From: Metarhizium brunneum | Lineage: Eukaryota; Ascomycota; Sordariomycetes; Hypocreales; Clavicipitaceae | Reading direction: 5' to 3' | NCBI RefSeq assembly: GCF_013426205.1 | Contig: NC_089422.1 | Location: 9,542,625 to 9,606,624, forward strand | Length of the DNA stretch: 64,000 nt | Shown: in pieces, positions 647 through 64,000 of the stretch | Layout: the number at the start of each line of letters is the position of its first letter | How positions within the stretch are numbered: the stretch's first letter is position 1 | Translations under genes and position numbers: made by a program | The notes under the pieces: model-generated | Database searches by the model: none | What the model saw: only the letters and a program-made list of their open reading frames with translations | What the model was told of the DNA's origin: nothing

Positions 647-2373
647 ACCGTACAACAAGCTATAACGGTTGCTGCTGATATGAAGCAAATATACAAGTCT
701 TGCAAATATAAGGTAAAGTAGTATATTATATAATTAGAGAAATAAATATACTAACTAGAATATAGAACGCAGTAAGTCTATTTTATAAACTTTACTATAT
801 ATCAGAAATTGCTTACACTATTTGCTTATAAGTGGAACGAAACAGTAAGTATATTTCCTGGTTTTTATATATAATTATAACTTAACTAAGCTAATATACT
901 GGATTATAGTTTCACGGGGTAAGTAACCTGGACAGCTATAAAATAAGCTTAGCAAATATCTGCAAGGTACTAATTATCTGCCTAATATAGGCGAATGACG
1001 AGGTAAGTCGCTAACCTTCGTACTATTACTAAACAAAAATAACTAGACGCTAAGTTATACTAACCTATTGGTCTGATAAGACATTTTATTATGTAGGTTA
1101 ACGTACTATTAATCTTAGAAATTAAAATAGGAAATATTATACTAATAATATAACGTTTAAAAAAATAGCCAACTGGTATTTATTGTTCTCAGGGAAAGCC
1201 AGTAAGTAGCTTTTCGTTTAATAAGTTTTATAATTTATTCTTACTAATATTTATAGTCTAAGGAAGCTCCCGAGGATGTACTTATCCCTACTTGCGAGAT
1301 ATATAACGGTGTAAGTTATATCTACCTTTATATATTTAGTTGGCTAGAGTAATATACTAATATATATATATACTTTAAGTGTGGAACTTGTAAATTATCT
1401 GAAACGAACAGAAATATAAAAAGATTTCTCGAAGAAAAGGTAAGCTCTTCCTACTAACAAGTAAATTAGTATTTGTCTAAAATTAGGGGATAATAGGAAG
1501 ATTTGTATTGTGACTTGGCTTAAGCTAGCTAAAGTGCAAAGTAATTGCAAGTATGTGCGCCGACTACGCACTATATCCTGGTCTAAGGTGCAGTTAGCTC
1601 CACGCGAACTATTATGTATTACTAGGGAAGTACTAGTATTTATTTAGCTTATATCTCGCACTTGTAAAAGGGTGAGGCAAATCTTGCTTAAATAATATTA
1701 TCCCTATTTTCAATACTACCTAGCTGTCTTTTACCCTATTATTCAGGCTTACTAGTTCTATTATTTTCCCTTGATATAGCTTTTAGTTTTTACGTAAAGG
1801 TTATAAAATGAAAAACCGCAAATACCTATTAAGTTGCCAAGGCAAGGGACTTAGCAACTAAATAGTAAGCCTAAAAGGTAAAGTCTGTGGCCTTATAATT
1901 TAACTTCTTAGAAGATAATATAGGTTTAATTTATAGGGTTATAAAAATATAAAGGCCTTATTGGGCTAACTAGGGTATTTAAATAAATAAATATATTATA
2001 ATCAAGGTTAAAAAAGTAACCTTAATTCCGGGAATTACACCCTTGGTAAGTCTTGGCGTCAACAAAGTTTCCAATCGCACTGCTTCGCAAGGTAGGCGGA
2101 GTCAAGAGGTATTACAGCTAAAGGTGTGGGCCCAAAAGGCAAAAGTTCCATCTCCACCTTAAGGTTGCAACCTGATGTTCTATTACATGCCCCTGTGGCA
2201 ATAGTTCACAGCAGCCCAGCGGGGTTAGAGGTTTGAAGGACTCGTATTGTGCCTTATTATACGCTGGCAGTCTGAGTCGGTAATAGATACAAAAAGTAGT
2301 GACAGGCCCTCCAGCTCTGCCATCAGCACTGAAAAGGCCACCTTGAGCTCAGTACTACATACCACTACATACC
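647..2373. other. AT-rich decayed intergenic DNA
   Basis: No usable ORF is seen. From about 660 to 2040 the sequence is very AT-rich with dense TA dinucleotides and stops in all frames, which suggests repeat DNA degraded by RIP-type C-to-T mutation. The stretch at 1833-1880 contains GGCAAGGGACTTA and nearby words that recur at 35381-35430, so at least part is a dispersed repeat. GC content returns at about 2040, ahead of the oxidase gene at 2374. Confidence 0.6.
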
Positions 2374-4204
2374 ATGCTCTATCTCGCAGCAGTGGCCGCT
2401 TTCATAGCTGTACTGTCCGTAGTGGGCGCGTCGCCAGTCGGCTCAACTTATAACAATACCGCCTCACATCATGGTTCAAAGTGCCACTACCTCCCAGGTG
2501 ACGCACAGTGGCCTAGCCACACGGCTTGGCACAAACTGAACCAAACACTAGGAGGTAGGCTTATTCGCGGAGTTCCTTTAGGCCAAAACTGCCACGAACC
2601 CAAGATAAATAGCAGAGAATGCTCCAAAATTCGGAGCGAGTGGACGCTGCTAGAGCCGTTGTAAGTCATGCCGAAATATAATTCGTGGAACTACTCTTAT
2701 AGTATATATATGTGTTTTTCTCTCTATATACGACCACTAATACCTATCCAGTGTAAATGACCCCGTCAATATCATGTCTCCTTACTGGAACAATAACTCC
2801 TGCAGCCCGTTCCTAGGTCCGGAAATGCCCTGCACCTTGGGCAATCTCGCGTCCTACGCTATCGATATTAGGTGCGCTGAGGATGCCATTACAGGCATCC
2901 GGTTCGCAGAGGACAATAATATACGTCTCAGCATCAAGAATACGGGACACGACTTTCTAGGACGCTCCTCCGGTGGGGGATCGCTGGCACTGTGGATGCA
3001 CAATCTAAAGCAAGTGGAATTTTTCGACTACGCCAGTCCGCTCTACACCGGGCCGGCTGTCCGCGTGGGCGCCGGCGTCGAGTACTCGGAAGTGTACATG
3101 GCAGCCAGCGCTCGCGGATATCGAGTCGTCGGTGGCTCTTGTCCCACCGTTGGACTGGCTGGTGGTTTTAGCCAGGGCGGTGGCCATGGGCCCCTTGGTG
3201 CGGCATACGGCCTCGCTGCTGACCAGGTCCTGGAATGGGAGGTCGTGACGGCCTCGGGCGAGCATCTGGCGCTCGCTGGCCATGGTGAGCACGCGGACCT
3301 TTTCTGGGCGTTGAGTGGCGGTGGAGGCGGCAACTTTGCCGTGGTTCTCTCCATGACGGTCCGGGCACACGCCGACGGTCCTGTAGCCGGCGCCGGCTTC
3401 TCCTTTACCAACCCCGGTAACGACACGGTGTTCTGGGGCGGCATCACGGCGTGGCTACGGCACTTGCTCGTCTTGCATACTTTTCATAGGGGCATCACCA
3501 CCGTCTTTGCAATCACGGCCAAGTCGTTTGCGCTTGAGTTTGCCACACTACCTGACACAAACACAACAGACACTATTAACGCTGCCATGGCACCATTCGT
3601 CACCCAGCTCTCCGACCTCAATATCTCGTTGGCGGGCAGCTACCAGAGCAATGTCCATAAAGACTTTGCCGAGCATTACAGCCACTGGGCCACGCAGACC
3701 TACGCCAGCAATATCACACTCGGCGGCCGCCTCATCCCGCGTTCTGTAGTGCAGGATGAGGTTTCGGGGCTCCCCGCGCTTGTTAATACTTTCCGCGACA
3801 TCGCCCACAGAGGCGCGGTTATCTTGTCTGTCGCTGCCAACGTCACCAATGTGAACCATATCCACAACGCTGTTTTGCCCTCCTGGCGTGACTCGCTCTT
3901 CACCACAACATTTGCGAGATCGCTGCCCCAGGAGTCCACATGGGATGCTATCCTCGCAGACTACAGGCAGCTCAACGCGTGGCAGGAGGACCTCCGCGTT
4001 ATCACGCCTGGAGCAGGGACGTATATGAATGAGGCGACGTGGGATAACCCGCATTGGAAGGAGGATTATTTCGGCTCGAATTACAACGAGTTGTTGGCAG
4101 TCAAGACCAAGTATGATCCAAGGCACGTGTTTTGGGCCAATGCCGCCGTTGGGAGCGACGAGTATTGGAAGGCTACCAAGGATCGGAGGTTGTGCCGTAT
4201 TTGA
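2374..4204 (+). CDS. Secreted FAD-linked oxidoreductase, berberine-bridge-enzyme (BBE) type
   Basis: Join 2374..2660 and 2752..4204, 579 aa. The intron has donor GTAAGT, branch ACTAATAC and acceptor CCAG, and the phases match. The N-terminus is a clear signal peptide (MLYLAAVAAFIAVLSVVGAS). The FAD-binding-4 (PCMH) domain shows NTGHDFLGRSS, whose His is the usual covalent FAD attachment site. A second motif, QGGGHGPLGAAYGLAAD, has His where bicovalent members have Cys. The BBE tail contains the NYNELLAVKTKYDP...FWANAAVGS block. The family oxidises alcohols, amines or ring carbons using O2. As the outermost gene before the PKS it may be a secreted or vesicular tailoring oxidase; that role is inferred. 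Convergent with the PKS, with 205 bp between the two stops. Confidence 0.88.
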
Positions 4205-4409
4205 TCTCGCCTGTAGAACTCCGTATTCGCCGTGAGCACAATACGCAGCCTAGATCGATATCGGCAGGCTGGCGTGCTTGCTATGTAATGCTGGACTCCT
4301 TGCGAGTCCACGAGAATGAATGAATTCTGCACATCTCATGCCACCTACACTCCCTACACAAGATGTTTGCGGTCAATTTGATGCAAATGAAGCTTCTTTT
4401 ATTACTACA

Positions 4410-7400
4410 CTATGTAGGACGCTTCGAGGGATCGTCTAGCAGGCTGGTAATTATATAGCTTGCACGTTCCATTGCCTTACATAACTTTGTTACATATGCC
4501 GGCCGGCCCGAGACCGCAAATCGGGCATGTTTCTCCCACACATTACAATGAACATAGACACCACGCTCTCCACATACTAGGAAGCCAGCCTCGTCCCAGT
4601 GGCCGTTGATATCATCATCTCCAGGTGTGGCCCCGATATTGCCGTTAGCATCGTCATTAGGCGCCAGCCGCATGAAGCCAAGCTTGACATCTTGACCTGG
4701 ACCGCCGCGGCGCGTGGCATCCCAGGAATGTGTCCTGAAAAGCTCTGGAAGTTCTTTGTCCTGTTCTTGGGCAGCCCCTCGAAGGGCGTATAAAGCTCGC
4801 ACAGCACCGAGGCCGCGACCTGCTGCGACCACGGCACGCGAATGTGTCGACGTGGCCTGGTGTAATAAAGCACGGACTCGAGTCCTGTTGTTTGAATCTG
4901 TATAGCTAGCTGCCGCCGCCTCTACAAAGGCGCGCGTAGCTGGAGAGACGGTCTGCACCCACTCTACTCGGCCGCGAGCAAAAGTCCCGAGAGACACCTT
5001 TTCCCAGGCCGGCCTAATTTCTCCGTCAACAAGATACAGGGCAAGAAGAACAGTGAGATGTGCAGTGGCGTTTGGCTGCAAGCGAAAGCCACGCAGGGAA
5101 CGAAAACCGAGGCTGGCAACATCCAATACCTGGTGATCGAGAGGTCCATATACCTGGCATTGGGCCCGTACATGTTCAATACGTTGCAACGTGGCAGAGC
5201 TTGGTTCCCACATGAGTTGTTGGACTGCATAGGGTGGGGAAACAGACGAAATGTCTGCCGTTTCACTCGGTGGGTGAGCCAGAATAGCACGAGCGATATG
5301 AGCATGCAGACGATTTGTGTCTATACCGTCGAGCTTACTATGTTCATATATTTCAGCTGATATGCCGTTGGCAGTGACAGCAAACTGGAGAGTTTTATCC
5401 AGCCAACGATTTGCAAAGGGACGGTGCGCCCCATTAATCATAAATTGCGTGTATCTTTCTCCAGAATTAGTAGGTGACTCATCATCAAGACACATGACAA
5501 ATGCGGCCGTATCAATACATGCCAGAACCGCGGCATTTTGAGGGCGGCGTTCAAGGTCTAGGCGGAACTTTGGTCAAGGTAGTTAGTACAACCAACTGAA
5601 AGAAACTAGGGGCAAGCCAGGGAGGGAACAACTATACCAATGCCCATGAGTCTCGTTCGTCGGCAGTGAGGGTGCAAACGGGCGGAATGGTGTCGCATGA
5701 TGCCGTAAGAATATCATCATAGACTCTCGTGACTGCCAACATGTCCAGCGTTTGCTCGACATCTGGAAGTCTTAATTGGAAAACATGCCCACGACGGAGT
5801 ACGGCTACGGTATGGTTAGGGGCATGGCGCTCCATATGGTCTACGCCGAGGCCAGGTCGACGTGTGGCATAGAAAAGCCAATTACGTCCTTCCGTTGTAA
5901 TCGGCTCACCGTGGAGCGTATCAGGAGCTATGTCGCCGCGAGCCAAGAGACGGATAAAGTCGAAGGCGGCTATAGTCAGGATGGCAGCACGCCTTGCTTG
6001 CGAGTGTACGGGGGCTTGTATTGAATGGATAAAGATAAACGGACCCTGCTCTGGAAGCGGTTCACGACGGTCTAGATACACTTGGCGATCGTAGGTTTCC
6101 GCAATGACATCCGAGTCTGTCTTTTGGAGGCTTTTATATAGTCTAGGCCCAGGGCCCCTGAGAAAATTATGCACAGCATCGCTAGTATTGCGGCGATGGT
6201 TGGCTGTATCGATAGCGCGTCGAGAGTCTTCAAAGAGGCGGAGGGTATCTGAGAGCGGAGGTAGAGGCAAAGGCGGCAGCTTTTCTGAAACATATTTACC
6301 AGTTGAGTGTGCTGATGTTGAAGGCCTTACAGCCCCTGCTGAATGATGATCTTCGGCATCGCCGTTTTCTAAGCTGTCTGCAGTGGCTTCCTTGTCCAAT
6401 CCAGATGCTAGCAAAGACGACCGAGAAGCGACTTTTTCGGCAAGATCACGTATGGGCTGGTCTGTCAGGATCTCAGACGATTGTAAGGGTGATTTGAACT
6501 CGCGAGTGATCCAATTGCGCAATTCGATAGCAACAAGTGAATCTAAACCGAGATCTAGAATGGAGCCATTCCTATCCTTGATCTGGTCATCATCCATTGA
6601 AATGAGTGTCATGAGCCGACGAGTAATGGCACTACCAATGAAGTCGATAATGGTATCAAGGTCACCACCTTCCACGACCTCGTCAAAGGATCGTACACTA
6701 TTCGTGGACGATGAAGATTCCTCTGCGGCTAAAGAGCCACGTATATGGCAAAACATGGCCGAATGGACATTGCTGTTGCTAGCTGATGTATGCGAAAGTG
6801 ACGCCGCGTTGAAGCCAATAATGGCTTGACGCATACGCGAGTGACTGGATGCGGCTCCAAGCAAATGGTCAAAATAGCGAGACAGCTCTTGTCCAAGTAT
6901 GGGCCTTAAGCCGGTACGCCATAGCCCTTGGAGTATGGTTTTATTATTGGATGTATTGATGGCGTCCTCGATCCAACCAATATTCATCGACAGGAAACCA
7001 GGTCCGCGATCATGCGCAATGGCATCCTGGACGGCATTGCCGGCATTGTAATTGGCCTGTCCACTGGCACCAGTTATGTTGACTGCAGATGAGAGCATGA
7101 GAAAGAAGTGCAGGTGAGGAGACGCAAAAACCCGCTCGAGCACCAAGGTGCCGTCCACCTTAGCGTGGGCTACCGCGAAGAAGTCATCGAAGGTCATGGT
7201 CTCCAGGGTGCGATCCTGTATGTGTTAGCTTTGCGTTTCGAGGACTTGATAGTTGAAGGGGATGTATTTACGTGAAGAGTGACTGCAGACTGAATGACAC
7301 CTCGCACAGGGGGGACACCAGTTCGGATAAGGGTGTCTGCTGCATTTTGCACGCTGGATTCAGAAGTGATGTCACACACTAAACAGTATAGACGACAGCC

Positions 7401-10400
7401 TGGTTGGACGAGCTTGAGCTGCTCCTGAAACGAGCGGTGGTCTTCCGGTTCAATGGATCGTCGGGAAAGTGTGACAAGATGCATAGCGCCACGACGTGCC
7501 ATGAGCAACAAAAGACGCCTGCCGAGATCTCCCATACCTCCTGCAACAACATAAGAAGCATCCGCTGCTTCCCAGTCCATGCTGACGCTCGAGGAGATGA
7601 CTGTGCGCACAAGAGAGCTTGGAGACGCCTGCAGGATGACCTTTCCACCCTGTCTGACCAGGTGGATGGCCTCACGAACCTGGGCGACATCTTGGATATA
7701 CAGGTCTATGCCTTTAAACGGGATTCGTTGTAGGGCTGGGGTGGCTAGGGATACCAGATCCGCCAAGCGGTCAGGCTGCGCTTGAACAAGATTGGTGATG
7801 TGGCAATAATGTATGGTGGCATTCTCAGGGGGTGGTGAAGGGAACGCGATGGAGGAAGACGAGTTGAAAACAACGACCTGTCCAAAGGGTTTTAGGCAGC
7901 TCCATGCGGCAGCAGGGACAGAATCCTCGCTGATGCGAATTATGGCGTCGAGCTGCAAAAGCTCGTCCAACCGTGGTCGCAGCAGTGAAGGACGGCTGAC
8001 GATGATGTTTTCGAGTTGAATGTTAAGCTGTCGAGTAATTTCTAGGGCCTCTTGTTGGCTGATGGCTGTTGCAGTGATGGTTGCGCCAAGGACTCGAGCA
8101 ACTGCTACACTCGCCCGTCCAATATCGGTCAGGACGCCGTGGATGAGCACTTTAGATTTTCCTTTCGAAATCTGGGCAAGATGATGAATGGCATAACTGG
8201 CAGCTATGGTAGGAAGAAAGAGAGCGGCAGCAACAGCGGGTGACAAACTGTCCGGTCGTCGACTCACATGCGAGGAGGGAACACGGGCATGGTTGGCTCC
8301 GACAACTCCATCGAGCGTGAGCGCGACCACGGCATCTCCTGGACTGAAATCTCGTACGCCTTTGCCTACACGTCTCACTATACCTGAGTACTCCCCTAGT
8401 TGATAACTCGTCAGATTCTGAGACTTGGACAACACAAACGCCTCCGTCTCGACCTCGACTTGACCTTCCGCCAACTCCACCGTGTGACTGTCGATGAAAA
8501 CAATGTCGCCGTCGCCTTTTGAGCTTTGGACTGGGCCCAGAGCTAAGCGCCTCGTAGAGTTTATATAGTGATATGGTTCCGTTTCAATGTTGCTGCTAGG
8601 CCCGGAGGCTTTCTCTGAAGCTCGGATGGCGCGGTTTAAGCAGTCGCTGCGTCGTAGGCGTGGGACAAGCACTGCAGCATCCCGACTGACACGATATTCC
8701 CGTTCACAATGCGCAAGAGAGTCTCGAGTAGGAGCATAAGTCAGACAATGGCAGAGTAAATCGACCAATACAGGACTTCCAATTGCTTCGAGGGCGGCAT
8801 GGACTACAGTGAGACGGAGATTATCATTCTCAGCATGCGCAGTTCGCGCGACGCCAGTGATCTGGTGCATTGAGGATGGGCTGACCAAGCTAAGCCAGAT
8901 AATTCGGTGATCCTGTCGGAGCAGTGTAATGGCTGAGTTGAAGCAGGCTCGGTCGGAGAGAATTGGCTGAGCCAGGTCGTCGATTACCATGATGCATGTG
9001 TTTCTCGCATCGCTACTCCTCTGTATGACATCCTGGCTCCAACTTCCAGAACTAATTTCATATCCCGTCTCATGCAGCTTGCCTATCAGTGCGGTGGCCC
9101 ATGATGGTGTCGTCTTCAGGGCTGAGTGTGTAATAATATGGACACGCGAGGACGAATGCGAATGTTTTGTCTTGTCATTTCGCGCAAGGATAATTCGATT
9201 ACCATTGACAGAATTCACGACAGTTAGCTGGACATCATGGCTAGGCCAAGTTTTTCGAAGGGTAGACTGCCAATTGTCATCCGAGCCCGGTTTCAGCACG
9301 ATAACTACTACGCCATCGTTCTTTACAAGAGTCGATACGTAACAGAGAGACCCAAGATCGGACACCAGAACCACGTCATACGTATTGTGTGCGAAGCCCT
9401 GAGATTCAAGACTGTTGTCTGGATCCAATGCTCTCCGTCGAATTGGGTACCCTATCAAACGTTTGCAACCCTCATCAATGGGCTTGTTTCCCCTCTCTAC
9501 AACATCGTATGAGGTCACCGTACCTCTGTGTACGCCAACAGCGGCCAGGAACGCCGGCGCCAGAACCCCCGGGCTCTCCCCAAGCTCGGCAATGGACAGA
9601 TTTGCAGTCTTGAAGCATATAAAAGACACTAGATCAGCCAAAGTTGAATTTCTAGTGAGATCGCTGGTGCGTAGGAAGTTCAAATCACATCTCCATGCCA
9701 GCTCGTAACAAATGCCGTGCTCGTCTTGTGTGCCATGGGCCCTATCCGCATGGTATGCCAAGCTCCGGGACTCGATTGCTGAAGCATAAATAACCGGAAA
9801 GCCACCTGAGACTACGGTCATATCTATATTGCTTGCCCGGAAGTGGCTGGATGTGAGCTTTGCTGAGACCTCGAGTTTGGAGCCCTGGCTGTTTAGTGCA
9901 GGTGTCTGGGTTGAAATCAAGAGCTCCCCGATGTGGACAGGCATAACAGATCCGGAACCATGCCACCGTTTCATCATTGGGATACCCACATGAAACATGC
10001 TGTCTAGAGTTGTTGGGTGTAGAATATGGGACGCCTGGTATTGTGCTGGCATACTGGCGGCAATGTCAGGGACCTCGATTACTGCGGTCGCCCTTAAGCC
10101 ATCCGTCGACGTTGTTAGGGAGCGTAGGCCCCTGAATGATGGCCCATACGTGTTACCATCCGCGGCCATCTCATTGTAAAGCTCCTCAGGGATCACCACA
10201 ATTCCGTTTAACCAGTCCTGCTTGGGGTGGGGGTCAAGCATCACAGATTCTGTCTCTGGCTTGTCAAGAGCCATGACACCTTCCACAACTCCCGTACAAA
10301 ACACATGCCATTTGCCGTCGGACAGAGCCGTGACGGAGAAAGTAAAGCTAAGAGGAGATGCGTCTGCTCGATGCTTGAGACTTAGTTGCATTTCCACGCG

Positions 10401-55723: not shown

Positions 55724-57014
55724 TTAGCACAAATTTGTCGCTGGCGCCGCGTCATAAGTACATGTCCTTCTGCTCACACAATCGTCCTCCTTCTTCGCAC
55801 AACGCAAGTGCAGCGCCTTGAATTTCCATCCCTCGGTCCATAGACGCCGGCATTGGCCTTTATTAGCATAACCATAGCCGAACCATTTACCTGTGCAGTC
55901 AGGCTTCTCCCAGTAGCTGATCTGAATCTGTCCATCTGGACAATACCCCTCAGGGGAGATATCAAGAGATGCAACGGAGCAGCCAGTGCGAATACAGGTA
56001 CCGTCATTAACAGACAAGTCGTTGTAGACGGCGCCAGTACAGTCATTATGGTACTGTGTCCTTAAGCGAAAGGCGGGAATAATACCAGTACAAGCGTAGG
56101 CATTCGCCCATAAGCCGGTACATTGGCTGCCTGCCTGGGGGTTCCATTTAAGCAGATCAGCAACAGAGATGCCAACATTAGCTGCGATAGTAACGCATGA
56201 ATCACCTGCCTGTACAAGGTAGAACCGGTCGCAATTATCCACTATTCCTGGCTGTGTAGGAGACGGTGTTTTCACGCTAGTATCGGGCTTCGAAGGTGTC
56301 GGCTGTGGCTTATAGCCCATCACCGAGACACATGCATAGGTGTCTGCCCAGAGACTCCCGCACTTCTGGCCAGCGTTGGGGTTCCAGTTAAGGAAGTCTG
56401 TAAGAGGGATTCCGTTTTTGGAGGCAATATCTTGACACCTTTCACCTAGGGACACCCAGTAGAACTTGTTGCAATTCTCAACTATTCCTGGTTGAGTTGG
56501 TGTTGGAGTAGAGATGCCACTAAATGTTGAGAGTTTCCGGTTAGCACGACTCGATAACGCAAAGGCCGAAGAATAACAACCCACTTGTTTGGTTTCGTCG
56601 CAGTAGAACTACTGAGACTGGTGCTGCTGCTACTACCAGAAGTTGTAGATTTGAGAGTAGCAGGTGGTGCAGAGATTGGCTCCTGACTAGCCTCAATGCA
56701 GTACGATTTGCCAATGACAAAGTTGCCGCACGATGCTGCAATCACTGGATTCTAAAAATTGTCTTGTTAACCTGCTTGCCGGCCTTTGTTCCTCGTTATT
56801 ATACACATACCCAGCGTATCCATTGTTCATCAGTAATAAACCATTGATTGGGAATGTCCTGGCATGCAACGCTTCCGTCATCGTTGTCATACCAGAAAGT
56901 ACAATATTTGGTTGTAGAGGGATCGTAGGCGTATTTTGGCTGATTAGTACCGCCAGACAACACTTGTTGTGTAAGACAAGCCAAAAGAATCAAAGCAAAC
57001 GCTGATACCATCAT
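55724..57014 (-). CDS. Secreted protein with three LysM domains
   Basis: Complement of join 55724..56519, 56585..56751, 56811..57014; 388 aa with signal peptide (MMVSAFALILLACLTQQVLS). LysM 1 spans the first intron (YCTFWYDNDDGSVACQDIPN, then NPVIAASCG). A Ser/Thr-rich linker follows. LysM 2 (FYWVSLGERCQDIASKNGI, LNWNPNAGQKCG) and LysM 3 (FYLVQAGDSCVTIAANVGI, LKWNPQAGSQC) are joined by Pro/Thr linkers beginning TPTQPGIV. A Cys-rich C-terminal domain of about 110 residues has no family I can name. LysM modules bind chitin oligomers; secreted fungal LysM proteins shield hyphal walls or mask chitin from hosts. It is transcribed away from the chitinase gene, an arrangement known for subgroup C chitinases. 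Intron 2 donor GTGGGT was preferred over GTTGTT. Confidence 0.9.
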
Positions 57015-57968
57015 TAACAAGACGCTGTAAGCTAAAGTGGAAAAAGTCTGGTTCGTCTAGCTCAGCAGATAAGCCTTGCTGGTATTTGTCAGGTCAAAGA
57101 AAGATAGCAATGCCACATGTATATACAAGGACAGGACACAAGGCGCTTACATGTGGCGAAGGCTCCACAGCTTTCTGCATCTTTTAGCATTTTTATGTGG
57201 TCAACGACGCAAGATAAGCAATTCACAGTCGGCTATCCAATAACTCTCTCCTCGGCGACTTCCTCTTCCAGTCAAGAGGAGATGTATACTTCAGGTAAGT
57301 TCTGAGGCTCACCGGATGCGAACTGGATCATGAGATACCGAAATGAGCAAGAGAAGAAAATTTTGCACTGAACTGGAGCCCTGTCAGGGTGCAAGAAACT
57401 ATTGTGCCAGGAGAACAACAGCCCGTGCCGTCTGTAGGCCCCCTATTTGTGGGCCTCGAACGATAACTTCATGCAGCAACGTCACAATATTTGCTACGGC
57501 TCCTGGTGGCCAATCTTTCTAGTCCTGTATTACTCCACACTCCTCCAGTGTTGGAAATCTCCTCGGGCAAAAATGTCGACGGAAAAGTCTTCAGAGCATG
57601 TGGGATGTGTCAACAGGCCGATATTACATCGGGCCCCTTACAATTCATCTCCATGTTAGTCCACTCAGCCTTCCAACCCACTTATTGTATTCGAAATCTT
57701 TATTAATGCCAAGAAAATGACCTGAGAGGTATACTAGACGAATTCCATAATTGCCGTCACTTTTGTATTCCGAAATTCCTTGGCGTGTCAGCATGTGCCA
57801 CCCGAGGTTGACCTGATGTAAACGTTTAAAAAAGCAAGGGAACTGAGGAGACCGAGTAAACATATAAGAGCACCGGGTCCAGAGTCATACGCTAAAAGCA
57901 TGTAAAAACCGGGAATCTGGCAACACCTGCGAGTTCGGGCAGGAAAGGCTTAATCCATCCACCAAACA
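57015..57968. promoter_or_regulatory. Divergent promoter region of the LysM and chitinase genes
   Basis: 954 bp between the two divergent start codons. No gene is evident; short ORFs at 57447-57706 have no motif. Shared regulation of the pair is likely but no operator was recognised. Confidence 0.5.
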
Positions 57969-60900
57969 ATGCGGCAGTGTACGCTGTGGCCGCAACTGGC
58001 TGCTCTTCTCTTGGCTTTGGGCCACGCTTTCGCCCAGGAAGCAGATACCTTGAAAAACAAAATAGGTTGGACGGAAGAAGAGCTTCTCAGGGACTTGACT
58101 CCGATACCTACTGGAGTACCTCAGAATGATCCATGGGCGTTGCCTCTGATAAACGGTTGCCCACGGAACTGCGTCGAAGCAGGCCCCGATTCAGCCAACT
58201 GGACGCAATTATATGACCAAAACCATCTAAGCTTGTGCAAGTATCCTCTTCTTTTCGCATTCAATGTCCACAATGGCCCCAGCAGATACTCGACAATTCG
58301 GGTATGCGCCTTGAATGGCGGCGACGGCAAGCGTTCAACCAGTGCAGTAGTTGTCCCGGAGAAAGATGGTGATGCTGCGCCGCCAGCTACTGGACTGCCA
58401 ACTGCCTCGTTCTCAGAGTGTGGTGCGGGAGAGTCGACTACCGAGGCAACTGTCAAGGCCGGTTTCGATGTTGTATCTGAGAATACCCGGCCTGACGCTA
58501 TGTCTGCCGCCAACTTTTTGATTTCGCATCTCAGCTCGAATACGGCATGCGGAAATGTAATTCTATTTGCAAAGTTTGGCGTTGCGCTCGTCGGCCTCTA
58601 TGCGGGAGCCGATTTGAAGAAGGATCGAGCTGCTGAGCTTCTGCACAAATATTGGTGAGGACATCCGATCACATCACCCCTGTTCTTCTGGTAGCTAATC
58701 AAAGCACAATAGTATGTGTTTTTTTAAAAACTTTTTTTTCTTTTCCTATGCAATGTGTTTTCTCATTGGAAACTATTGTATTTTTACTGCCAACCTCATT
58801 GCTTCATCGTATCTTGTTGACGTATGCTGAGTCCGTTGTACAGTACCTGCCATCAAAAGCGGGAGTCTGGCTCTGGAAATATGTGACAATGCCGCCAAAA
58901 CTTCTACTACAATTGGAATTTTTGCATCGGAAGGAAACGATATTGGTCGGGTACAAGAAGCTCTCAGAACATGGGCCCTTGGTGAATGCCTACCGAGCCA
59001 AGGAATGCGGGTTGTTGAGAAGAGTGTGGAACTTGGAATTCTGCTGTCAACTGCTCAGAGAAACGCCTCTAATTCTACTCAAGTTGAGGGCAAAAAGTCG
59101 CGCAGAAGCCTCGCCAATTTACTGACTGCGAGAGGGGAGTGTAGAACTATACAAGTTGACGACGGCGATAGCTGTGCCTCCCTCGCTTCAAAATGTGGCA
59201 TTAGTGGAGCACAGTTCACTAAGTACAACTCGGATTCTAAGCTACATATATGTTCAACTCTGATGAAGGGACGCTGGGTTTGTTGCTCCGGTGGTGACTT
59301 GCCGGACAAGCGACCCAAGACACAAGCAGACGGAACATGCTACACCTTGAAAGTTGACTCTGGCGACTCCTGTTGGGGAATCACGACTAGCTACAGCATC
59401 ACAATGGACGAATTGAACAAATGGAATAAGGAAACTTGGGGATGGCAGGGTTGCGCTGGTCTGCAAAAAGACCAAATCATCTGCCTCTCGAACGGCAACT
59501 CTCCTATGCCGGCACCAGTAGATGGCGTAGCGTGTGGCCCCCAGAAGCCAGGCACGCGCAAGCCGTCTGGTTCCTTTACTGGGAAAGACCTCGCCAAACT
59601 AAACCCGTGTCCCTTGAACGCCTGTTGCTCGGGCTGGGGATACTGCGGCACCACTGCTGAGTTTTGCACGGAATCACTTGCTGATACTGGTGCCCCTGGT
59701 ACACACAAGCCCGGCACCAATGGCTGCATCTCCAACTGCAACATGAATATTATCAGAAGCCCTGAACCTGCGGCTTCGTTCCTCTCTATAGGCTATTTTG
59801 AAGGCTACGGTCTCACCAAGATGTGTGACAGGGTCGACATTCGGACCATTGACCTGAAAAAGTACACTCACATTCACTTTGCGTTTGCAACTGTGACTGC
59901 GAACACATTCGACGTCAACATGGGGCCAACACTAAATCAATTCTATTATTTCAAGCAACTGACCGGAGTCAAGAAGATTTTAGCATTTGGCGGGTGGACG
60001 TTTTCTACAGAGTACGTATCAGTTACCATGCCTTTATTTATGGCGTGAAATGGAAAGAAAACTTAACATGTTACTGATCTCTCCATATCAATCAGCCCGG
60101 CCACTTATGGCATCTTCCGTACAGGTGTTAGCCCGGCTCATCGGCTACAGATGGCACAGAACATGGCAAAGTTCATCATTGACAACGAGTTGGATGGCGT
60201 CGATATTGACTGGGAGTATCCTGCCGCTCCCGATCTCCCTGATATTCCCGCCGGTGACGTTGCGGAGGGTATTAACTATCTGAAATTCCTTATCACTCTC
60301 AAACAACTTTTGCCCGCGGACAAGACGATATCGTTTGCGGCGCCAGCGTCGTTTTGGTACTTAAAAGGGTTTCCTATTGCTCAGATCATGAAAGTTGTCG
60401 ATTATGTTGTCTACATGACATATGATCTTCACGGGCAGGTAAGCTTGTTTCACGGTACTTAACGGATTTGGACTTTCTTTCAGTCTAATTTAATGCAGTG
60501 GGACTATGGCAACAAATGGAGTACTCCTGGTTGCCCTGCTGGCAACTGCCTTCGGTCTCACGTCAATATGACAGAGACTCTTAACGCACTCTCCATGATT
60601 ACTAAAGCCGGCGTACCGTCTAACAAAATTGCTGTCGGGGTTACCAGCTACGGCCGTTCGTTCAAAATGGCTACACCAGGATGCACTGGGCCAATGTGTA
60701 TTTACACAGGGCCAAAGTCTCAGGCCGCAAAAGGCCGCTGTACCAATACGGCGGGCTATATATCCCAGAACGAGATCGATTATATCATCAAGAACAACCC
60801 TTCTGCCACTAAGTTATACGACGATGCCAGTCTAAGTGATATTCTAATATATGACGAGACAGAGTGGGTGGCATACATGAGCGCTGACAACAAGAAGAAG

Positions 60901-62721
60901 CGAAGACACCTATACAGAGCTCTGAATTTCCTGGGCACAAGTGACTGGGCAATCAGCCTGGATGGAACTGACCTAGTTAAGCCAGAGCCGTCAACTATGA
61001 GCCCCGTCGGCCCTTCTCTTGCCCGCCCTGGAGTAATGGACCTTCTCATCCATAACAGCTGCAAGATCAAGGGCCGTCTGGAAAAGGTTCAGGAGGCTTG
61101 GTTCGAGGCAGGAGATATCAGCAAAGCTCCCTATGAGTGGTCGCGCTGGAACAGGTATCAAAAGGCAATGGACAACTATTTTGGAATGAGGTCGGGCCAG
61201 GTGCCTATTATTGGAACTGATAAACTCTGGGGTAAGTGTTCATCTTATTCTTACCCAATGTGCATGGATCGATGACATGGCATAGAAAAACTGACACTAT
61301 TATTCACCGTTTCTCTCCAACAGAAAACTTTAAAAGGCACTCTAGTCTTCACTTTGGCCGCTCCCTATACGGTTTCAAAATAATGAACATGTACACTTAC
61401 ATTTTCTGCGACGAAGCAGACCTGCCTAAAAAGGTTCACGAAGATTATAACGTTGTATGCGTGAATGCGAAAAAAGGAAACAAACACGTGGCTGCAGTAA
61501 CGTACAGGTATCCAGGCACATGGTTCTGGTCAGAGTATTATATTCTCCTGTGCCCCGGCTTTTTGGATGAGCTACCAAACCAGCCCAAATTTACGAGCCT
61601 CAAAGACCTTGCCTACGAAGCGGACAGCTTCCCTTTACTTCAACAACAGATCAATAGATGGAGTTCCGGTGTCCGCGCCGTAACTATGTACCATGAAGTA
61701 GCTCATTTTCAGGACGTTTCGGATCCCGAGTGTGGCAAAATCGAATTTTATAACCCGCGAGAAATTGTGGTCAAGGCCCGGAGCGGGTCAAGAATAGAAT
61801 ACGAAGAACTCTTACGAAATGCGCACTCCTGGGTTAGTACAATACGTATTCTTTCATCAACCAAGTCTATTTGACTTATTTATGCCTGTCTGTTTGTTGT
61901 CTGTTTGCTAATTGAGCTCTTTTATGTTGATAGGCTCTAGCGGCTGTCTCTATGTGGATGATGAAGCGTTGGCCGAACATTGATGTGCCACTACCCAGGA
62001 ATATGAAGCCACAGAGCGAAGGCGACGACGACGACGATAATAGAGCATTTGCCGATCACGTTGATCCGGATAGTAAGTAATGCTCAACAGATCTTTTTTC
62101 CCCAGTTTCTTTATTATTCGCGGCTATCACACTCGACACGACACTGTGGTTGGGTGCGAAAGAGAGGCAGTGAAGCGACAGGAATCATGTTGAAAGAAAT
62201 ATCCGCTGACGACTCTACTCCGTACTACAGATTCGTTTGATGCGTCACGCGTGGATCCCAGCAAGTTTACATGGCTCAGCAGGCTCACATCAACTGACAG
62301 AGAGCTTGGATTGTAAGTGAATGCTTCCTGAATCTCGAAAACCGCCTATTATTACGTCCGCAAGACATATTTTATGGCAATCCCGCCAGGGGTTGAGAGG
62401 GTTGATGTGACCAGATGAGTTATAACCATGTATTAACCATGTTGTATTCTCAACAGCGACTGCGTGGAAGGTGAATACCAGCATGAAGATCAGTGCAAGG
62501 CCTTTTGTAATAATGGCGGTAACGGTAAATGCGCCAAGAAGGATAATGGCCGATGGCAATGCAGCAGCTGCAAAAATGCAACAAAATGCTCAGCGGGCGT
62601 TTATAAAACAGACGAGGAATGCAACAGCAACTGTAAAGGCGGTAGTTGTTCCGCAAACTTCGAATGTGACCCTGATAAGCGTACTTGCGACGACCCCCCG
62701 ATTATTAAATGCGCTTGTTAG
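57969..62721 (+). CDS. Killer-toxin-like GH18 chitinase (LysM-LysM-ChtBD1-GH18) fused to an HExxH metallopeptidase-like domain
   Basis: Exons 57969..58654, about 58880..60011, 60096..60438, 60499..61231, 61324..61832, 61934..62072, 62231..62312, 62457..62721; roughly 1300 aa. The second exon's start is unresolved. Signal peptide: QLAALLLALGHAFAQ. LysM modules: CRTIQVDDGDSCASLASKCG near 59140 and CYTLKVDSGDSCWG near 59338. ChtBD1: CPLNACCSGWGYCG near 59610. GH18: SIGYFEGYG and catalytic DGVDIDWEYP near 60193. After GH18 the frame continues in phase through a GTAAGT intron into about 170 residues with MYHEVAHFQD (HExxH at 61692-61706) and ELLRNAHSWALAA, matching Asp-zincin-like peptidase layout. 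A Cys-rich tail of about 88 residues ends the protein. Chitinase activity is well supported; peptidase activity is predicted only. Confidence 0.85.
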
Positions 62722-63883: not shown

Positions 63884-64000
63884 TTAGGGTTAGGGTTAGG
63901 GTTAGGGTTAGGGTTAGGGTTAGGGTTAGGGTTAGGGTTAGGGTTAGGGTTAGGGTTAGGGTTAGGGTTAGGGTTAGGGTTAGGGTTAGGGTTAGGGTTA
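63884..64000 (+). repeat. Telomere, (TTAGGG) x 19.5
   Basis: 117 bp of perfect TTAGGG repeats run to the window edge in the 5'-to-3' outward orientation, marking the right end of a chromosome. The first full unit follows CTAAGGG. Confidence 0.99.

Follow-up and report, generated by a model that had tools for sequence, protein, structure and literature searches.

A C-II chitinase of Metarhizium brunneum with a predicted aspzincin-like domain and a cysteine-rich tail after GH18

LysM and CBM18 modules are known to hold proteins on chitin, and in the zymocin of Kluyveromyces lactis beta comes after the GH18 part, with a dibasic cut between the GH18 part and the part that follows. By the definition used here, subgroup C chitinases of the C-II type carry LysM (CBM50) and CBM18 modules, then a central GH18 domain and a long C-terminal extension (PMC4169460, PMC12954445; all papers are cited for the passages available, to which statements about them are limited). 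Outside the GH18 and CBM domains the proteins of subgroup C differ greatly from one another, and their C-terminal parts have been called blank or dissimilar (PMC4169460). The C-II clade includes the class III Hce2 effectors (PMC8042737), one of which is raised about threefold in Podospora incompatibility (PMC3689799), and the toxic gamma of zymocin is a separate subunit whose entry is helped by alpha/beta (PMC8715425). A C-I member of Histoplasma has been studied (PMC8042737), and according to statements of 2015 and 2023 no subgroup C chitinase has been characterised biochemically (PMC4392113, PMC10223446). The gene considered here lies in a 64,000-nucleotide stretch of Metarhizium brunneum (NC_089422.1, positions 9,542,625 to 9,606,624; hereafter the window), which closes contig C1 of a source genome of 37.8 Mb and seven contigs. 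Its predicted product has 1302 residues (computed mass 143 kDa), and its C-terminal extension holds a conserved domain with an HExxH motif, followed by a cysteine-rich tail (Table 1).

The Pfam scores for GH18, ChtBD1 and LysM are all above the cut-offs, which upholds the killer-toxin-like LysM-ChtBD1-GH18 layout of the original prediction, and the protein as a whole fits the C-II layout, an assignment based on domain order and motif, with relatives judged by pairwise identity. C-terminal of GH18 the Pfam scan of the window protein gave no match. HEVAH, NAHSW (with ALAA) and a last exon with 14 Cys are present, and in an alignment of 12 sequences, the window protein and 11 database proteins, the domain is placed behind GH18 in every case, more than expected by chance. 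All 12 keep the Glu and second His of HExxH, an Asp three residues further, a Cys, E-x-Y and A-H-x-W, the Glu of E-x-Y sitting 13 residues past the second His; the sole exception to a whole HExxH is P0002 of Aphanocladium album, where Tyr replaces the first His and the fusion is retained. Glu1112 may bind metal. The reading favoured here, with moderate confidence, is of one secreted C-II chitinase whose C-terminal part is an aspzincin-like zinc-peptidase domain with a disulfide-rich tail, cleaving proteins at the opened wall. The protein would be secreted and anchored on chitin by LysM and CBM18; GH18, its motif being intact, would cut the chitin, and the tail domain, kept at the opened wall, could then cleave peptide bonds at the wall or surface, its targets being perhaps proteins in the wall or on the surface of a competing fungus, or else proteins that serve the cuticle or immunity of an arthropod host.

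Table 1. Positions in the window of the chitinase gene, its parts and the divergent neighbour
Feature	Position	Strand	Basis or remark
Whole gene, eight exons	57969..62721	+	Splice model, GT-AG introns; intron-1 junction uncertain
Exons	57969-58654, 58860-60011, 60096-60438, 60499-61231, 61324-61832, 61934-62072, 62231-62312, 62457-62721	+	Splice model
Signal-peptide-like start, hydrophobic, ends AFAQ	57969..58034	+	Judged by eye
Two LysM stretches	59138..59430	+	Pfam PF01476, best residues 393-419 = 59350-59430; limits of the first by eye
ChtBD1 / CBM18	59602..59673	+	Pfam PF00187
GH18 domain, two internal introns	59788..60963	+	Pfam PF00704, E 7.7e-39
GH18 catalytic motif DGVDIDWE, intact	60193-60216	+	Motif position
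Post-GH18 domain, aspzincin-like, about residues 914-1165	61057..62005	+	Conserved in 12 aligned sequences; weak M35 fold match
HEVAH, residues 1095-1099	61692..61706	+	HExxH in 11 of 12 aligned sequences
E-x-Y, residues 1112-1114; Glu1112 candidate third metal ligand	61743..61751	+	12 of 12; putative ligand role
NAHSW, residues 1137-1141, ALAA following across next intron	61818..61832	+	A-H-x-W in 12 of 12
Cysteine-rich tail, 14 Cys, last exon	62457..62721	+	Residue count
Divergent neighbour, two LysM stretches; probable first exon 57056-56799	55724..57056	-	Limits are stop-to-stop frames

By splice modelling a single frame runs from the ATG at 57969 to the stop at 62721 through eight exons, and removal of the intron 61232-61323 preserves it, in keeping with the one continuous fused protein that had been predicted. 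Separate genes for the chitinase and the peptidase-like part are rejected on sequence, given that the frame is unbroken and the fusion recurs in 11 database proteins. These 11 distinct proteins come from Metarhizium, Aphanocladium, Hapsidospora, Hirsutella, Diaporthe, Chaetomium, Tolypocladium, Cladorrhinum, Achaetomium, Triangularia and Pseudogymnoascus, the last of these a leotiomycete and the others Sordariomycetes. With the post-GH18 part as query, 4 proteins were matched among 424 candidates, and with one matched relative as query 8 among 410, the query itself counted. In precomputed Pfam columns GH18 is present in 11 of the 11, LysM in nine and ChtBD1 in eight, and over the post-GH18 part the relatives outside Metarhizium are 39-51% identical to the window protein in local alignments; a piece of the domain is missing from the gene models P0001, P0011 and P0013. 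The cysteine-rich tail is matched by six database proteins (43-54% identity). A search with the domain alone, which covers proteins sharing five-letter words with the query and 0.55 to 1.75 times its length, found no free-standing relative: two of 387 candidates were matched at E<=10 (P0005 and P0006), both bearing GH18 and ending before HExxH, and these were excluded from later alignments. Proteins with the fusion form a conserved subfamily, so far little examined, within a known chitinase class. The suggestion that the architecture may be undescribed is overstated: the fusion is no singleton, and five of the 11 proteins sharing it already bear the name 'killer toxin subunits alpha/beta-like'. 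Within the available open-licence PMC literature no description of the post-GH18 domain was found, save that a figure legend lists among A. album chitinase domains a peptidase M50B-like domain (PF13398) and Hce2 (PMC10223446); the protein and region of the M50B-like call are not visible in that legend, and Pfam gave no such match to the window protein.

M35 enzymes combine HExxH with GTxDxxYG, the Asp of which is the third zinc ligand (PMC12924839). The proposed Asp-zincin-type domain stands in part: the predicted structure of the post-GH18 domain finds its best matches, though weak, among aspzincins, but GTxDxxYG occurs in none of the 12 aligned sequences, E-x-Y standing in its place, and the part of the model holding the metal site is poor. 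As modelled, the domain appears to share with M35 (deuterolysin; GfMEP 1ge6; AsaP1 2x3b) the HExxH, the order of helices and strands and a weak fold match, whereas its family has Glu in place of Asp, with Tyr two residues after it. Of the six Aspzincin_M35 places in the genome five were aligned, and in these HExxH, Asp and Tyr are followed by NA-x-x-Tyr; the window family keeps this order but has His-Trp in the last element. One of the six (L022), in the first 10 kb of contig C2 and no more than 8.2 kb from its start, is perhaps subtelomeric too. By sequence, the suggested search against M35 returned nothing significant in profile or sequence comparisons, the matches listed being weak and of the kind that chance gives, with PF14521 included; PF14521 did not match the window domain at E<=10 and weakly matched two of ten relatives (best E 0.053) and, in a separate search, one of four (0.093). 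Profile comparison of the domain alignment (11 rows, window included) with five of the genome's M35 proteins gave a score of 27.3, or 23.4 without the window; when the M35 profile was reversed, its score against the ten-row alignment was 13.0, and the highest of 100 column shuffles reached 21.9. However, with HExxH held fixed seven of 100 shuffles exceeded 27.3, and the score is thus no evidence beyond the motif. Fungal M35 enzymes cleave insect prophenoloxidase or suppress plant chitinases (PMC12924839), and by analogy only these might be targets of the window tail.

It is possible that the tail is an inactive zincin fold with a binding or structural part to play, HExxH being kept for folding or for a metal-stabilised structure. 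The missing M35 Asp motif, the fusion kept in P0002 despite the loss of the first His, and the poor metal site of the model all suit this explanation; it is nonetheless judged rather unlikely, given that HExxH is whole in 11 of 12 sequences, its Glu and second His are present in all, and E-x-Y and A-H-x-W are invariant. A part resembling the beta subunit, which would help the chitinase, or a toxin separate from it, to cross the membrane of the target just as gamma is helped by zymocin alpha/beta, is suggested by the naming of the class after its likeness to zymocin alpha/beta (PMC8715425) and by a hydrophobic stretch in the C-terminal region of the paralogue L018. The window protein has no such stretch after GH18 (its top 19-residue mean is 0.74, whereas L018 reaches 2.02), nor any dibasic [KR]R site between the end of GH18 (residue 878) and residue 975, and these two absences speak for a one-chain enzyme and leave an entry function with little probability.

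At intron 1 (58655-58859) the frame is kept by one acceptor alone among those tested, a poor AAAAG, so that this junction is uncertain; the gene model of M. humberi deviates at the matching position, and splicing of an unusual kind is possible there. This, together with a gene end about 1.2 kb from telomere repeats, would fit a decaying subtelomeric gene whose frame is no longer used whole and whose apparent conservation reflects its relatives. The chance of this is slighter still, as the remaining junctions are in frame for seven exons on, and the M. humberi protein is 92% identical in the N-terminal, 96% in the LysM/CBM18 and 98% in the GH18 parts in pairwise comparison. Elsewhere in the model an exon 4 start at 60484 was dropped in favour of 60499 because the five extra residues it would give are missing from relatives.

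The enzyme so understood resembles ChiMaC1-C3 of Metarhizium anisopliae in the order of LysM, CBM18 and GH18 and in size (PMC4169460), but in the available literature on these no zincin-like domain is assigned after GH18, ChiMaC3 having a CBM24 call there. From domain count and size the window gene can be guessed to be the orthologue of chimaC2 (ChiMaC2); subgroup C transcripts of M. anisopliae are low, and chimaC2 is seemingly induced in autolysis (PMC4169460). The genome has two other loci, L018 and L017, that match the window protein in its N-terminal, LysM/CBM18 and GH18 parts (GH18 pieces 45-61% and 37-48% identical, respectively), but neither matches the window post-GH18 part or tail at E<=1; the domain was found once in the genome. 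L018 (about 3284-7694, minus strand) carries LysM, CBM18, GH18 and the C-terminal hydrophobic stretch, and L017 (about 2367-7338, plus strand) has, past its LysM, CBM18 and GH18, a Cys-rich region and a further frame that is a candidate part of the same gene; the pieces of their C-terminal regions that were scanned gave no significant Pfam match. Given these differing C-termini, the published dissimilarity of subgroup C and the members bearing Hce2, the region after GH18 is a variable slot.

As for its content, class III Hce2 effector chitinases such as Podospora Pa_5_1150 likewise join a C-II chitinase and an effector-type domain in one chain (PMC8042737, PMC3689799), so that effector tails on this chassis, an architecture that the original prediction put forward as possibly undescribed, were already in print for Hce2; unlike them the window protein lacks PF14856 by Pfam, and the one PF14856 place of the genome is on a different contig. 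With zymocin alpha/beta the protein shares a CBM18-GH18 chassis (PMC8715425, PMC4392113), a likeness of layout, and it differs in that no dibasic site separates GH18 from the domain. Given that gamma is a separate subunit (PMC8715425), the place after GH18 answers to beta, and the 'cargo position' of the original prediction is an analogy only. No separate toxic subunit of the zymocin type was found for the window gene, no search for a gamma-like partner having been made.

The pairing of a LysM-protein gene with an adjoining subgroup C chitinase gene is known, and upstream of the chitinase a divergent gene with two LysM stretches begins about 0.95 kb from its start. The chitinase is the last recognised gene before the chromosome end. 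Beyond it the sequence is AT-rich, with 8-31% GC per 500-base step from 62501 onward, and TTAGGG repeats run from about 63884 to the end of the window at 64000.

In summary, one subgroup C C-terminal part gains an identity that can be tested, as its candidate residues are named and its members defined in several fungal genera, and relatives bearing Hce2, together with two paralogues of the same genome whose C-termini differ, make the killer-toxin-like idea testable as chassis plus payload. A broader, and at present unlikely, suggestion is that bacterial polymorphic toxins have a eukaryotic counterpart in the C-II chitinases, with a constant chassis that binds and cuts the wall and exchangeable C-terminal payloads, and that the payload here would found a new zinc-peptidase family (HExxH, E-x-Y, A-H-x-W; aspzincin-related fold) acting on rival fungi or arthropod hosts. 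If the tail is indeed a peptidase held on chitin, it would bear on the means by which fungi that parasitise other fungi or infect insects breach walls and cuticle.
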